Below are positions 10,247 through 28,942 of a DNA stretch of 64,000 nucleotides, piece by piece. How positions within the stretch are numbered: position 1 is the stretch's first letter; each line of letters starts with the position of its first letter. The notes beneath the pieces are model-generated. The model was not told the DNA's origin. It did not search any database and saw nothing but the letters and a program-made list of their open reading frames with translations. The position numbers and the translations under genes are program-made. Origin of the DNA: Spartobacteria bacterium (GTDB taxonomy: Bacteria > Verrucomicrobiota > Verrucomicrobiia > Chthoniobacterales > UBA10450); assembly GCA_003134785.1 (NCBI GenBank), contig PLCN01000003.1, positions 1-64,000 of the forward strand. The letters run 5' to 3'.

Positions 10247-11553
10247 CGCGGTTTTCCCTCCAGGCGAAACTGGGCGTGATCGTTCGGCAGGATGCGGGGC
10301 GCCGACATATCGAACTGAAATGTTTGCAGCTCCGGATTCTTTTTCACTTTGTCGGCAAACTGATACGCGAGAGCGGCCGAGTTCGCCTCGCCTTCGATCG
10401 AGACTTGCCGCGCGGATTGAGTGAAGTTGGTGATGCGCACGTCCGCGGAAGGCAAGCTGTCGAAAATATGCACCAGCACTTCGATGGGGTAGTAATGCGG
10501 ATCGATCGCCGGAGCGAGGGCCCGCCATCTCGTATCCGTCGCCTTGACGAATTCAGTCCGCGGGGCGTCGCGTGCGATGCGGCGATCGAGCCGCCCGATC
10601 CGGAACTTCAAGATGAGCATGTAAGCGATGAACAGAACCAGGATCGCGGCGTAGGCTCCGCCCGCCAAAAGAAGACGCTTCCGCCATTCTCCCTGCCGGG
10701 CGATTTGAGCGCGGCGTTGCCGCCACGCTTGCGGCAGGAGATTCAATCCGCTCTCGGCCGGCGGCACTTCCACCGCGACGAAATCGGGAGTGTTGGCGAA
10801 TAGCCCCTCCACCGTGTCGCGCAAAGCGAACAAACTCTCGTCGAGCAGGATTTTCGGGAAGGCCGTGTTGATTCCCTGCAATTCCGCACTTAAGGCCAGC
10901 TGAGGCAAATCGCGCTGAAGCTGAAGCGGGTCCGCGCCATCCAGCGTGCGCGTGAAACTGAGTTTCCCTTCCTCGGAGATTGCGCAGACAATCGCTTCGC
11001 TCTCCGGGTAGATAAGAAGGGCAGTGCCGAGGGGCGCATGAGTGGCGGCGCGTTGCGCGGCGTAAACGGTCACCTGCCTTGGGATCAGGTCCCGGGAGAT
11101 AAGCGGCGCGGCCAGCTCGGAAAGTTTTTCGTTGTGAACGGCGACCGCGGAAATCACGCTCCCCTCCTCCGTCTGCGAGATGATCTCGGAATCGGTCGTC
11201 ATTTCCTCGGTCGAGTACGGCATCGCCTTCTCGATCTGAATGCGCACCATGTCGGCGAATTCGTCGCGATCGATCGTGGGCAGCCGCAGGCGTTGCGCGA
11301 GCACGACCGCCACCGGCAGGCCGAGAATGAAATCGTCCCCCGGCTTCAGCAATTCTCCCGCCTCTTCCAGTGTCGTTAGGCCGCGCACTTCCCAGGCGCC
11401 GCTGTGCTGGGCGAAACGGACCAGGTTCCAGCCGCTGCCGGCGGGGATTAAATAAATTGGTTGCGATGCCGGCTCGATACTAAAGCTCCTTCCAAGTCCC
11501 GGGAACCAGTTGAATAGAATTTGTCCCCGCTTTGCGGATGAGCATTCGAACAA
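10243..11553 (-). CDS. GspL / PilM-PilN-like secretion protein
   Basis: The cytoplasmic part (to about residue 285) has an actin-like PilM/GspL fold (PTIDRDEFADMVRIQIEKAM, then TEEGSVISAVAVH). A membrane segment (LLLAGGAYAAILVLFIAYML) and a PilN-like periplasmic domain (PIEVLVHIFDSLPSADVRIT) follow. GspL bridges the assembly ATPase to GspM. The start is unclear: the frame opens at ATG 11553 inside gspK, but homology would favour a start near FSIEPASQPIYLIPAG just after the gspK stop, where a GGAG-type ribosome site exists but no ATG, GTG or TTG is in frame. Confidence 0.82.
   Translation of the reverse strand: MFECSSAKRGQILFNWFPGLGRSFSIEPASQPIYLIPAGSGWNLVRFAQHSGAWEVRGLTTLEEAGELLKPGDDFILGLPVAVVLAQRLRLPTIDRDEFADMVRIQIEKAMPYSTEEMTTDSEIISQTEEGSVISAVAVHNEKLSELAAPLISRDLIPRQVTVYAAQRAATHAPLGTALLIYPESEAIVCAISEEGKLSFTRTLDGADPLQLQRDLPQLALSAELQGINTAFPKILLDESLFALRDTVEGLFANTPDFVAVEVPPAESGLNLLPQAWRQRRAQIARQGEWRKRLLLAGGAYAAILVLFIAYMLILKFRIGRLDRRIARDAPRTEFVKATDTRWRALAPAIDPHYYPIEVLVHIFDSLPSADVRITNFTQSARQVSIEGEANSAALAYQFADKVKKNPELQTFQFDMSAPRILPNDHAQFRLEGKPR
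11373..11381 (+). repeat. TCGTTAGGC word
   Basis: In the gspL-like gene, read there as GGC-CTA-ACG-A (GLT). Confidence 0.9.
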
Positions 11554-12508
11554 TGCGCGTGACGTCTCCGGATTTCCCCTCGCTGATCACACGCATCGTC
11601 GGATCCTCATTGAAACCTATCAAACCGGCAACTTGGTTTTGGACCGGCTGGGGATAGCCGAGCGCAGTCAGGACCTCAGTGAGCGAATGGAAAACCGCGT
11701 CGTCTTCCGTCCCTTCGATTCCATCCGGGCCGCGACGCAGGGTGAGGAATTGATCGACCAACGGCTCCGTCATTCCGGGCAGCGACAGGAGAACATCGCG
11801 CGAAGCCCAAGTCGGATCGATTTTATTCAGCGACTGCTGCGTGTTAATCGTGAAGTCAGCGTCCCAATCCTCCTTTGAAGTAAATTCCTCCCAGCCCTTG
11901 ATTCTCTTGACCTCCTCGATCCGCTGAAGCAAGCGGTTCGGTGGTTTGTAGCCGGGACCCTCTTCCGCGCCGTTGAGCCGTTCCACATTATCGGCATCGA
12001 CCCAATCGAGCAGGCAATCGATCATCCGGTCGCGCTCGTCCAATTCGACGCCTTTCAGCTCCAGATATTTTTTCAGCACTTCGAGCCGCTGCTGATCTCC
12101 CTGTATCAAGGCCGTTGCGAAGCCGTTCAAATTAAATCGGCCCGCCTCACCTGTGATGCGTGTGCGGAATGTTTTGCCCGGCCCGAAGCTTCCGTGAAGC
12201 AGCACTGAACCCGCCTTGACCGCGGGATGCAGCGCGATCTCGGCGCCCGAACAGGCCAGCGCTTCCGCCTCGAGGCTCCGCGTGGCGTGGCCGGAAAGGG
12301 TTAGACGCGTATCGATATCCAGCGCCCAGGAAATCACCATCGCGCTGAGCAAAAACAGCGCCCAGAGCGAAAGCATGAGGGCCGCGCCGCGCGTGCTTCT
12401 TCTTTTCCTGTAGCGGCGGTCTATGACCGCCGACGAGCTGAGGACCGATTCGTTTCGGCGGTCATAGACCGCCGCTACAGAAGATTTCAATTTTCGCAGC
12501 GCACCCAT
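11480..12508 (-). CDS. gspK: Minor pseudopilin GspK
   Basis: The 342-residue protein has the GspK hydrophobic N-terminus RGAALMLSLWALFLLSAMVI and the long GspK insert domain with helix-hairpin-helix-like repeats (SLNKIDPTWASRDVLLSLPG). GspK caps the pseudopilus tip with GspI and GspJ. ATG at 12508 overlaps the gspJ stop (TAATG). Residues 10-34 (SSVAAVYDRRNESV, then AVIDRRYRKRR) are the translation of a palindromic repeat at 12409-12480, so the leader before the prepilin helix is abnormally long and of repeat origin. Confidence 0.9.
   Translation of the reverse strand: MGALRKLKSSVAAVYDRRNESVLSSSAVIDRRYRKRRSTRGAALMLSLWALFLLSAMVISWALDIDTRLTLSGHATRSLEAEALACSGAEIALHPAVKAGSVLLHGSFGPGKTFRTRITGEAGRFNLNGFATALIQGDQQRLEVLKKYLELKGVELDERDRMIDCLLDWVDADNVERLNGAEEGPGYKPPNRLLQRIEEVKRIKGWEEFTSKEDWDADFTINTQQSLNKIDPTWASRDVLLSLPGMTEPLVDQFLTLRRGPDGIEGTEDDAVFHSLTEVLTALGYPQPVQNQVAGLIGFNEDPTMRVISEGKSGDVTRIVRMLIRKAGTNSIQLVPGTWKEL
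12409..12480. repeat. Palindromic repeat, family A, inside gspK 5' coding region
   Basis: The arms CTGTAGCGGCGGTCTATGAC and GTCATAGACCGCCGCTACAG are perfect complements and continue with CGCC/GGCG. The ~22-base centre is unpaired. A second copy lies at 14070-14142. Confidence 0.9.
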
Positions 12509-13134
12509 TAGAGCGGAGTGCGTCCAAGCGCAACTATGGCTTCCCACGGCACCGGACGATCAGGCCGTCCGATCACCACCCGGATCAGTTTTGGCATCGA
12601 CGAGGTATCGGTCCATCTCTCGACCCAGGCATTGAGGCGCGAATCGAAATAACGAATTTGCAGGCTGCGAACGTCATCGAGCAACGGGACCCAGGTATCG
12701 CCTTCGGAGTCGCCCTCGGCCGTGTCGCGCGGCTTGCGCATAAATCCAATTTGCATCCGGTCGCTGCTGTCGCTCATCGGCCGGAGCCGCATGCTGACGA
12801 TGAATTCACCCGCCGCATAACGCGTCAACAGCCCCGGACCGGAGCTGCAAATCCACGTGATCTCATCCCGCGGCAGATCGTTGAACTTGAATGGCTCTCC
12901 CGTGAGAGAGTTCGTGCTCGGCAGGCTTTGCCATTGCGTCGTGAGGAGACTGAGCAGGCCGGAATAACGCGCCTCCGCCAGGTTTTCTTCGGAGGAAGCG
13001 CGCAGGACGGTAATATTCATCGCGACGAAGCGATAAATCGCGAGCGCCATCATGGCGAGAATCGCGGTCGCGAGCAGGATCTCGAGCAGGGTGAATCCCC
13101 GTCGCCGCGCGCGCTTAACCATTTCGATAGACAT
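12508..13134 (-). CDS. gspJ: Minor pseudopilin GspJ
   Basis: The prepilin signature RRRGFTLLEILLATAILAMM (cleavage before Phe14, Glu at +5) is followed by a GspJ-type C-terminal domain (DDVRSLQIRYFDSRLNAWVE). Length is 208 residues, as in the family. GspJ joins the GspI-GspJ-GspK tip complex. It overlaps gspI by 20 bases upstream and gspK by one base downstream, showing tight translational coupling. Confidence 0.9.
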   Translation of the reverse strand: MSIEMVKRARRRGFTLLEILLATAILAMMALAIYRFVAMNITVLRASSEENLAEARYSGLLSLLTTQWQSLPSTNSLTGEPFKFNDLPRDEITWICSSGPGLLTRYAAGEFIVSMRLRPMSDSSDRMQIGFMRKPRDTAEGDSEGDTWVPLLDDVRSLQIRYFDSRLNAWVERWTDTSSMPKLIRVVIGRPDRPVPWEAIVALGRTPL

Positions 13135-13516
13135 AAAATTCGATCTTCCTGGATTGGGCGATGCCGCCGCGGGTCCATTCCGCGCTCAAGGTCACGCGAC
13201 TGATGCCATCCACCTCAAGGTCCTTTTCGTCTTTCAACGCCGCCGGCGCGACGCGCTGAACCAGGTTCACTTGCCCGTAGCCAGTATCGATTTTCGTTTC
13301 CTTTTTCGTGTCGGGAAATCCGGGAGTCGCTTGTATTTCCGCCATCCGGTTCGCCAGAATCAAACGCACCCGATCGTCCTCGGCGGCGAGCATGCTGGCG
13401 TTCAGACAATTCTGAACCGACTTGCCCAGCACGAGCACTCCGATGATGAAAATCGCCAGGCCGAGCAGCACTTCGTAGAGCGCGAAGGCGCGGACGGTGC
13501 GGTTATTTCGACGCAT
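13115..13516 (-). CDS. gspI: Minor pseudopilin GspI
   Basis: This is a 133-residue prepilin-like protein. Its N-terminus RRNNRTVRAFALYEVLLGLA has Ala/Phe-Ala-Leu where FTLLE is usual, but keeps the Glu at +5 and the hydrophobic helix (IFIIGVLVLGKSV). The GspI family feature ANRMAEIQATPG is present. It sits between gspH and gspJ with overlaps on both sides, as in canonical gsp operons. The relaxed cleavage motif is worth noting. Confidence 0.85.
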   Translation of the reverse strand: MRRNNRTVRAFALYEVLLGLAIFIIGVLVLGKSVQNCLNASMLAAEDDRVRLILANRMAEIQATPGFPDTKKETKIDTGYGQVNLVQRVAPAALKDEKDLEVDGISRVTLSAEWTRGGIAQSRKIEFYVYRNG

Positions 13517-13976
13517 AATTTATCAGTTCCGCCCGGGCCGTGAGCGCGGAATACTTTGCCGTCCATCCGCCGTCCGGTCCCTGATATTTCACCACGGCGG
13601 GCTCGCAATTGCCCGAGGACCAGAAGACCCAGGCTGCGGGCGGTTCGTCTTCGAGCGCCGCCGGGAAAGTGAGCCGGAAGGATTCGTTTTTCTGCCACCT
13701 CAACGTGGCGATTGGTTTCGGGTCCTCATCTTTCTGCACCACCTCGGCGCGGAGCCCGACTTGGTGGTCGCCCCAAACGATAAGATAGGAGCGGCGCTCG
13801 GTGGTGCTTCGTTCCTGGGCTTGGCGAACGAGGCTGCTGAATTCGTCGAGCGAGCGACGCAGCCGCCGATCGGCCAGGACGCCACTCACACTCGGCACGG
13901 CCACCGCGAGGATCAGGAGCATCATCGCCACGGCGATGATGATCTCGATCAAAGTGAAACCTTTTTCGCGCCTCAT
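13503..13976 (-). CDS. gspH: Minor pseudopilin GspH
   Basis: The N-terminus MRREKGFTLIEIIIAVAMML is a classic prepilin leader cleaved at Gly6/Phe7. The C-terminal GspH/FimT domain follows (LDEFSSLVRQAQERSTTERR, then YLIVWG). It is the first gene of the - strand pseudopilin operon gspH-I-J-K-L-M. The ~280 bases upstream hold a palindromic repeat and no other gene; a promoter should lie there but none is obvious. Confidence 0.9.
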   Translation of the reverse strand: MRREKGFTLIEIIIAVAMMLLILAVAVPSVSGVLADRRLRRSLDEFSSLVRQAQERSTTERRSYLIVWGDHQVGLRAEVVQKDEDPKPIATLRWQKNESFRLTFPAALEDEPPAAWVFWSSGNCEPAVVKYQGPDGGWTAKYSALTARAELINYASK

Positions 13977-14069: not shown

Positions 14070-14142
14070 GTAGTGGCGGTCCATGACCGTCGGACGCGGA
14101 CAATGCAACCAACCTTTCGGCGGTCATAGACCGCCGCTACAG
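14070..14142. repeat. Palindromic repeat, family A
   Basis: The left arm TGTAGTGGCGGTCCATGACC and right arm GGCGGTCATAGACCGCCGCT pair with two mismatches around a ~28-base centre. It lies in the gap between gspH and the imelysin gene. Confidence 0.88.
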
Positions 14143-14256
14143 GAAAATTGGCGATTCTGGAACGGGTACCTCCTTGAATCTCATACGCAAGGCTCCGCTA
14201 AAAAAACGCAAGCGAACGTCAGCAAGGCCCCCTGCCCTATGGTAACTTTACTCCAG

Positions 14257-15321
14257 ATGAAACGGATTCTCGCCGGGTCGATCGCAGCTCTCGTTGCCCT
14301 GTCTTTTTTAGCGGATCGCGGCGCCGCTGACACTGCCGCTGCGGTGCCGGGATCTAATGACGTGAAGGGCTACCTGCGCGGCACACTTACAAAAATGGTG
14401 CAGGCGTCGAACGAATTCGTCGCCAATGCCGCTGAGTATCAGAAATTGGTGGATGCGAACGGCGGCGATCCCGCGAAGGCTTTCGCGCAATCACCGGACG
14501 AAGTGACGAAACTGGTTGCGGTTCTGCGCGAGAATTACAAAGCGATGGATAGCTTCGGTTATGAAACCATCGAAGGCATCGTCGCCGGTGTGCCGAAGCT
14601 GTCGGACTTCGATGTTTATCTCGACGCCGGTGTGCCGCAAGATCAGGCGGGCAGCGGGACACCGGTCGCGCCGGTCATTCTCACCCTGCCTGACGGATCT
14701 AAAATCGATCGCGAAGGTTGCCTCTTCACTTATCTGATCGAGCCGATGCTCTGGGGCTCGAACAAGAAACTGGTCGTGCCGGTCGATCTCGATCATGACG
14801 GAAAAATCGGACCGCGCGAATCGCTCCCGCGCGCGGACATTCTGAGCGCCGTCGCCAAGGATGTGTGCGCCAAAATTCACGAGCTGAATGAAACGGCGAT
14901 CGCGTGGCAGCCATCCACCTCCGATTATTTTTCCGCCATCATCACCATGACGCCGACACTATCGGGCTATTTCGATGATTGGAAGGAATCGCGCTACGCA
15001 CCGGAAACTTCCGGAAAGTTCACTGCGATCAGCCGCGTCTCGGACATGCGCGGAATCATGTTCAGCGTGGCGGTCCTCTATGGCGCGGTTCACCCTCAGG
15101 TCGCGGCGAAAGATCTGGCGCTGGCGAATTCGATCCAGCGTGGTTTCGACGGCATTCTGGCGTTCATCGACCGCGTGGATCAGCGGGAGAAAAAAGCCGG
15201 CGCGGCCATGACGCCTCCGGAAGTGGATGAGCTTGGCGAACAAGCCAAGCAAAAGGCCGACAAGCTCGCGCCCCAGGTGGAGCAAGCCGCGGCCCTGCTC
15301 GATCTGACTTCCGGCGCATGA
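14257..15321 (+). CDS. Imelysin-family (M75) iron-uptake protein
   Basis: The product is 354 residues with a signal peptide (MKRILAGSIAALVALSFLAD) and an imelysin-like helical domain. Imelysins (EfeO/IrpA type) are periplasmic or surface proteins of iron uptake and do not act as peptidases in characterised cases. GPRESLPRADI and the repeated helical hairpins fit the family. Its stop overlaps the start of the FTR1 permease (ATGA at 15318), so the pair works together. ATG 14257 is preferred; ATG 14239 is possible and the frame back to 14083 would translate a repeat. Confidence 0.8.
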   Translation: MKRILAGSIAALVALSFLADRGAADTAAAVPGSNDVKGYLRGTLTKMVQASNEFVANAAEYQKLVDANGGDPAKAFAQSPDEVTKLVAVLRENYKAMDSFGYETIEGIVAGVPKLSDFDVYLDAGVPQDQAGSGTPVAPVILTLPDGSKIDREGCLFTYLIEPMLWGSNKKLVVPVDLDHDGKIGPRESLPRADILSAVAKDVCAKIHELNETAIAWQPSTSDYFSAIITMTPTLSGYFDDWKESRYAPETSGKFTAISRVSDMRGIMFSVAVLYGAVHPQVAAKDLALANSIQRGFDGILAFIDRVDQREKKAGAAMTPPEVDELGEQAKQKADKLAPQVEQAAALLDLTSGA

Positions 15322-28382: not shown

Positions 28383-28942
28383 GTGCCGGAGACGCCCCCG
28401 AGACTCGATCGCATCTTTGATTGCTACGATCCGCCGTTGTACTTCGTCACCTTCAATACACATCAACATGGCAATTATTGGCAAATGACGCAATCCACCA
28501 ACGCTTCATCATGTTCGCGGAAGTCGGGGAGTCTCGCGGCATCGGCGTCGGGCGCTATGTTCTAATGCCGGATCACGTGCATCCGTTTGTCCGAGGCAGT
28601 CTCGATTTCGTCCTCACGCAATGGGTCCGCCTCTTGAAGCGCGACTTGTCGAGTGTGATTCCAATCGAACGTCCGCATTGGCACAAAGGATTTTTCGACC
28701 ACCTCATTCGCAACAGCGAAAGTTACGCGCAAAAATGGGATTACGTCCGCGAGAATCCGGTTCGTGCTGGACTCGTTACGAGTGTTGACGCGTGGCCATA
28801 CCGGGGCGAACTCGTTAGGCTGGAATTAATTCCGCTTTGGCCCCGGCGGCTGCTCGAGGCGAAAAATTGTTTCGCCTTCCTTCATCAGATCGAGCCGGTC
28901 GCGCGCCATCGTTTCCAAGTAGCTCGGATCCGTTTTGAGTAG
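28383..28942 (+). pseudogene. REP-associated tyrosine transposase (RAYT), frameshifted
   Basis: This is an IS200/IS605-like Y1 transposase of the RAYT group. The N-terminus is in one frame (DPPLYFVTFNTHQH, from a GTG at 28383). The rest is in another (LLANDAIHQRFIMFAEVGES, the HUH-like YVLMPDHVHPF, and SYAQKWDYVRENPVRAGLV with the likely catalytic Tyr). The switch falls near 28460-28475, so a one-base indel separates the halves. The normal end would be near WPYRGEL; the frame then runs over the end of ftsB to 28942. It is probably inactive unless the indel is a sequencing error. Confidence 0.85.
28812..28820 (+). repeat. TCGTTAGGC word
   Basis: In the RAYT remnant as CTC-GTT-AGG-C (LVR). Confidence 0.9.

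Follow-up and report, generated by a model that had tools for sequence, protein, structure and literature searches.

A REPIN read in frame in the leader of a gspK-like pseudopilin gene of a Spartobacteria genome

In the contig stretch of 64,000 nucleotides analysed here (the window; its genome is called G000, and G007 denotes a congener), a palindromic hairpin lies between the start codon of a gspK-like gene and the prepilin motif of its product. The locus raises the question of whether the repeat is read as protein and, if so, where it came from and why the gene tolerates it. The features of the locus are the following.

11480..12508, minus strand: gspK-like minor pseudopilin ORF, 342 aa, ATG at 12508, TAATG overlap with the gspJ stop
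12386..12508, minus strand: encoded 41-residue leader, MGALRKLKSS-REPIN-RKRRSTRG, ending at the predicted -1 Gly
12408..12480, no strand assigned: REPIN (two inverted REPs) with perfect 26-bp arms at 12408-12433 and 12455-12480 and a 21-nt gap
12456..12478, minus strand: REP unit GTAGCGGCGGTCTATGACCGCCG, first arm on the gspK strand, encoding VAAVYDR
12410..12432, plus strand: REP unit GTAGCGGCGGTCTATGACCGCCG, second arm on the gspK strand, encoding AVIDRRY
12508..13134, minus strand: gspJ-like pseudopilin, its stop overlapping the gspK start, Pfam N_methyl and T2SSJ over cut-off
13115..13516, minus strand: ORF in gspI position (named by position only), kept in the 10 relatives compared
13503..13976, minus strand: prepilin in gspH position (named by position only), Pfam N_methyl over cut-off

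The ORF is called gspK-like because it sits beside the gspJ-like gene in a pseudopilin cluster, and its product has a Gly-ended leader followed by a hydrophobic helix. Profile searches gave a match to Pfam T2SSK_1st (44.1 bits, above the cut-off of 26.2) and an NCBIfam T2SS_GspK score below its cut-off (42.7 bits vs 130), the latter counting against the explanation preferred below; the ORF in gspI position had no Pfam match. The cleavage site was placed by the prepilin motif, and the predicted prepilin-type junction lies past the repeat, at STRG/AALMLSLW (RKRRSTRG/AALMLSLWALFLLSAM). Prepilin leaders are described as hydrophilic, cytoplasmic and variable in length; their last residue is Gly or Ala, and prepilin peptidase cuts them off (PMC10191384).

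The arms of the hairpin are complementary at 26 of 26 nt (100%). The initial annotation had placed the element correctly except for the start of the first arm, which is 12408 and not 12409. The unit GTAGCGGCGGTCTATGACCGCCG occurs twice in gspK and twice at 14070-14140 of the window (once there with 3 mismatches), and had no match in 100 dinucleotide shuffles of the window. The 192 nt of RNA round the gspK start have a fold energy of -98.7 kcal/mol; 200 shuffles averaged -68.4, and none of them folded as low. A chance hairpin is thus ruled out by the perfect arms, the repeat copies, the shuffle controls and the RNA fold. Of the suggestion that a strong hairpin stands at the start of the mRNA, the strength is borne out (z = -6.7) and the position is not, for the overlap with gspJ puts gspK in the middle of an operon, an objection that holds if the two genes are transcribed together. 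The hairpin begins at nucleotide 29 of gspK, and a stem with this predicted fold might possibly affect translation of the gene.

The repeat belongs to a dispersed family. A genome search for the 23-nt REP, GTAGCGGCGGTC-NN-TGACCGCCG, found 138 exact copies in G000, while the reversed pattern, used as a control, had 0 copies in all 8 genomes of the genus. Thirty-five strict inverted doublets (REPINs) occur in G000, the gspK copy being one of them; G007 has 63 REPs and 17 doublets, and the six other congeners have 1-16 REPs each. The unit reads GTAG-CGGCGGTC-TAT-GACCGCCG, with GTAG at the foot of a short palindrome. GTAG at the palindrome foot, doublets and high copy number are the published marks of REPs and REPINs (PMC3733652, PMC3116915). 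G000 shows a high dispersed copy number, hairpin-forming inverted doublets and a REP-associated tyrosine transposase (RAYT) with flanking REPs, and the family resembles known GTAG REPs and REPINs in its GTAG end, short palindromic stem, unit of about 20-40 nt, inverted doublets with a variable spacer, more than 100 copies and REP-flanked RAYT (PMC3733652, PMC3116915). The assignment of CGGCGGTC-TAT-GACCGCCG to the GTAG class is by these features rather than by consensus comparison with the 24 GTAG families of PMC3733652. Unlike GTAG REPs and REPINs as known, at least two G000 REPINs appear to be read as protein.

The RAYT of G000 (C3:211405-211884, 160 residues) scored 97.2 bits against NCBIfam REP_Tyr_transpos (cut-off 80). 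Its start codon lies within a REP that has one mismatch, a REP pair follows close behind its 3' end, and it probably mobilises the REPIN family in trans. The best match to it in G007 is only 42% identical, which counts against this part of the explanation, and no REP was found in the 3.4 kb fetched round that match. A RAYT relative in the congener G004 has the same neighbour genes and flanking REPs; it matches in two overlapping frames and looks frameshifted. As a separate observation, the upstream REP of the G000 RAYT, CTATGACC, holds the ATG start of the gene; the TCT variant that prevails in G007 would lack this ATG. The window also carries a RAYT paralogue (28472-28825, plus strand) that shares 51% identity with residues 37-157 of the REP-flanked RAYT; its fetched locus holds no REP of the gspK-hairpin family.

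Within gspK the repeat lies in frame between ATG 12508 and the cleavage motif, inside the first 34 codons; it reads SSVAAVYDRRNESVLSSSAVIDRRYRKRR, translated as VAAVYDRR ... SAVIDRRY. G007 has a REPIN at the same place in gspK, also in frame (MNALEKSPVAAVSDRRKSAHSGFGSAVRDRRYRRESG/AALM) and with no later start. The initial annotation had taken the hairpin as coding, subject to the gene not starting past it, and both points stood up to the sequence comparison: neither G000 nor G007 has an ATG, GTG or TTG between the repeat and the cleavage motif. The repeat must therefore be translated unless gspK uses a non-standard start. In the repeat-free relatives compared, as the annotation had proposed doing, most gspK starts fall at or just after the gspJ stop and the leaders are shorter. 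The first arm is free of stops in the GTA frame only, and it is in this frame that the repeat is read in the gspK genes of G000 and G007, in a GspG-like prepilin of G000 and in three mid-gene cases in G007.

It is quite unlikely that the repeat is extragenic in practice, with gspK starting at an internal or non-standard codon past it and the hairpin acting only as RNA, outside either protein, at the junction of gspJ and gspK. REPs close to the 5' end of an annotated ORF are for the most part suspected mis-annotations (PMC3733652), and the second arm of the G000 copy has an ATA codon from which a leader of 13 residues, an ordinary length, might in principle be started. However, this codon is AGA in G007, standard start codons are absent between repeat and motif in G000, in G007 and in G074 (a genome of another family of the same order), and in G000, G007 and the majority of the repeat-free relatives gspK begins either in overlap with the gspJ stop or a short way past it. 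A downstream start was accordingly rejected for lack of ATG, GTG or TTG after the repeat, with ATA in G000 the one codon that the sequence by itself would still allow. The gspK start is constrained by comparison as well as by the missing downstream starts, unlike most N-terminal REPs of PMC3733652, which are suspected there to reflect wrongly annotated starts. The gene is otherwise intact and, with an in-frame repeat and no standard start past it, encodes a candidate REP-decorated protein.

That the insert damages a gene no longer needed is very improbable. Nothing suggesting decay was found beyond the insertion itself, and against it the 342-aa frame is intact and aligned to relatives over its length, the neighbouring frames are open and conserved, and the same arrangement recurs in G007.

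The gspK region was compared over 70 places, taken from 69 of the 88 genomes that had a match; one place was dropped because the motif was not recognised, leaving 69. Counted from the gspJ stop, the -1 residue lies at a median of 34 nt over these places and at no more than 56 nt in 56 of them; the distance is 119 nt in G000, the longest among the same-family places examined, and 104 nt in G007. Perfect inverted arms of at least 25 nt were found in three places (G000, G007 and G074), the other 66 having at most 8 nt. The view that the repeat lengthens the leader was upheld, since the G000 leader has 41 residues and most repeat-free relatives have fewer than 20, some reaching about 37. In nine of the 69 places the -1 residue is 57-110 nt past the gspJ stop with no long perfect inverted repeat present, so a long leader needs no REPIN, which counts against the preferred explanation. 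Within the genus, the repeat is absent from gspK in 6 of 8 genomes, where leader length ranges from about 11 to 35 residues (G002 has MEALRKTKRRG and G003 MKALRQHRRRG, for instance).

We consider it likely that a RAYT-mobilised REPIN entered the gspK leader, is read in frame and is tolerated since the leader is cut off. In this sequence of events, a REPIN of the GTAG-type family, mobilised in trans by the RAYT, would have entered the leader in the sole frame with a stop-free first arm and would be translated as about 24-30 extra hydrophilic, arginine-rich residues. The leader would stay cytoplasmic, where it may vary in length, and prepilin peptidase would cut it after the conserved Gly, so that mature GspK would be unchanged by the insert. 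The insert would be tolerated because the leader is cytoplasmic, variable in length and cut off. The net charge of the leader is +9 in G000, +5 in G007 and +4 to +5 in three repeat-free congeners. Tolerance without function is the simplest reading, because leaders vary and are removed and the insert keeps the leader basic. The sequences show that the repeat belongs to a family, is in frame, has no standard start after it, recurs in a second species and is missing from other relatives; mobility, translation, cleavage and neutrality are inferred.

The history of the insert bears on the alternative that it was adopted, the longer leader or the hairpin tuning GspK synthesis or processing and being kept by selection, which we regard as unlikely. 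In favour of adoption, the repeat occurs with perfect arms in both G000 and G007, their gspK proteins sharing 63-64% identity, and the RNA hairpin is very stable. The six genomes of the genus without the repeat argue against it, and two of them, G002 and G003, are nearer G000 than G007 is. A tree of 10 concatenated reading frames gave (G007,(G000,(G002,G003))), the fork tying G007 to the other three having support of 88/90 and the inner forks 100/100. A clade of G000 and G007 was rejected (p-AU 0.0001), which excludes single inheritance in sister species; the gspK insert is thus the outcome of two events, either a gain and a loss or two gains.

The arms and spacers also speak against adoption. 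The G000 doublets have TAT in both arms in 31 of 35 cases, while in G007 TCT stands in both arms of 14 of 17, two doublets being mixed and one having TAT in both. Five of the first 15 G007 doublets compared, gspK included, are syntenic on both sides with G000 doublets, and a sixth, one of two compared later, can be aligned on one side only, to 11 nt from the repeat. The sites besides gspK are as follows.

Further syntenic REPIN sites in the two species: L092/L089, L037/L088, L041/L084 and L101/L077; one-sided, L096/L239

Of the five two-sided sites, four have in each arm the base typical of the genome concerned, and the spacers at the five sites are no more alike than unrelated pairs, except at one site in opposite orientation. 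For gspK itself, the spacers of the two copies are no more alike than unrelated ones and the arms follow the genome-wide REP variant instead of a gspK-specific sequence, which fits REP population dynamics. The leader residues Tyr/Ile in G000 and Ser/Arg in G007 follow the genome-wide repeat, because the arms carry the variant of their own genome. Arms that match their genome and spacers that differ would be expected from concerted evolution or repeated insertion, and it seems that REPIN sites are shared while the element in them is replaced, by conversion or new insertion. Two sites were inspected in congeners. At the first, the copy in G002 is decayed and that in G005 almost intact, while a different palindrome stands there in G001; at the second, G004 has different palindromes, and G001 and G002 have no REPIN. 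Because a decayed REPIN is kept in G002 at one site, old sites with later loss in that genome are favoured.

A rough estimate of how often several hits would fall in one leader by chance was set aside, since the pattern had been noticed first and REPINs favour non-coding DNA. In G000 no start-to-stop frame crosses 19 of the 35 doublets, the other 16 being crossed mostly by short frames (strict doublets only, frames called without a gene caller). A doublet length divisible by three was discarded as a sign of selection by itself, as 15 of the 35 have it by manual count. Crossing frames were scanned against Pfam at six of the 16 doublets, those at the other ten having 34-101 aa. Among the six, gspK and one other prepilin encode a recognised domain that is separated from the repeat by no start codon; in the GlgC-like and radical-SAM frames, starts occur 7-8 codons beyond the repeat, and the remaining two had no Pfam match. 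The second prepilin is GspG-like; its leader contains a REPIN, after which no start codon precedes FTLIELLVV. When 98 genomes were searched for this REP at 3-33 nt before an FTLIE-type motif, the place in G000 was the only one found, so the prepilin-leader pattern is not widespread for this REP family.

G074 has a 26-bp REPIN of an unrelated family (GGAGCGGCGACATTCCTGTCGCCG) in its gspK leader with no start past it; the core of this type has 3 exact copies in G074 and 22 in its congener G065, whose own gspK leader is short, and was absent from the five others of the seven genomes searched. The gspK leader of G069 has 67 residues and several palindromes. Further inserts may be represented by the leader repeats of three loci, L010, L140 and L148 (GCCTTCGC-type), and of G069 (GGTCAGG-type); among 259 fetched loci, the former type was found only in L010 (again as L118) and L140, and the latter only in the G069 contig. 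One may tentatively suppose, with more doubt than confidence, that prepilin leaders in this order are safe harbours for RAYT-mobilised palindromes, which unrelated families would enter repeatedly as the leader is discarded, REP turnover rewriting leader residues without selection on the protein.

Restriction to prepilin leaders is ruled out by G007, where all 17 doublets were surveyed. Apart from the gspK copy, three are read in frame within proteins that have recognised domains, namely an Obg-like GTPase, an alpha-amylase-like protein and a helicase, so that tolerance is wider than the leader alone, and this too counts against the preferred explanation. Others are crossed by frames with no Pfam match or with a start past the repeat. 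In the Obg-like GTPase (L080, 758-1957, minus strand), the Pfam GTP1_OBG match falls in two stretches.

In-frame REPs are already known in several species, the GTAG cases being most numerous in the verrucomicrobium Opitutus terrae (PMC3733652). As there and elsewhere, the gspK doublet is a REP dimer in frame within an intact gene, such dimers coding about 20-30 residues, and recB, in which two Xanthomonas species have REPs at roughly one site, is a precedent for one gene hit in two species (PMC3733652). Many genes with in-frame REPs in PMC3733652 serve DNA synthesis and repair, unlike gspK, and the gspK insert differs from the in-frame REPs covered there in lying in a leader expected to be removed. 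The case also resembles the Rickettsia palindromic elements (RPE), palindromic mobile-like elements translated inside proteins, for which proteins with RPE-1 at the N-terminus were reported to be expressed in vivo (PMC3733652); RPE are of another sequence class and host, and the account of them in that paper, as far as drawn on here, does not place them in prepilin leaders. Literature searches for REP with pseudopilin and for REP or RAYT with Verrucomicrobia returned no report of a gspK-leader case among the papers covered; the supplementary gene list of PMC3733652, which lay outside these searches, might name secretion genes. What is of interest is therefore not in-frame REPs as such, which are known, but the location in a leader, its recurrence and the arms matching the REP variant of each genome. 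The locus appears to be a clean example of a REP pair read as protein at an N-terminus, one not easily put down to a misplaced start codon, in a position that the main survey treated as mostly mis-annotation (PMC3733652). It suggests a simple survival rule for such inserts, namely that they persist in removed or flexible parts of proteins, and G000 and G007 are paired species for following REP turnover at shared sites.

The window holds a second REPIN, at 14070-14140, which is partly decayed (3 mismatches in its first arm) and overlaps the longest-start form of an ORF at 14083-15321 on the plus strand (GGHRPPLQ). A start of this ORF at about 14257 (MKRILAGSIAALVALSF), signal-peptide-like by eye, lies past the repeat, so this REPIN is probably extragenic, the ordinary case.
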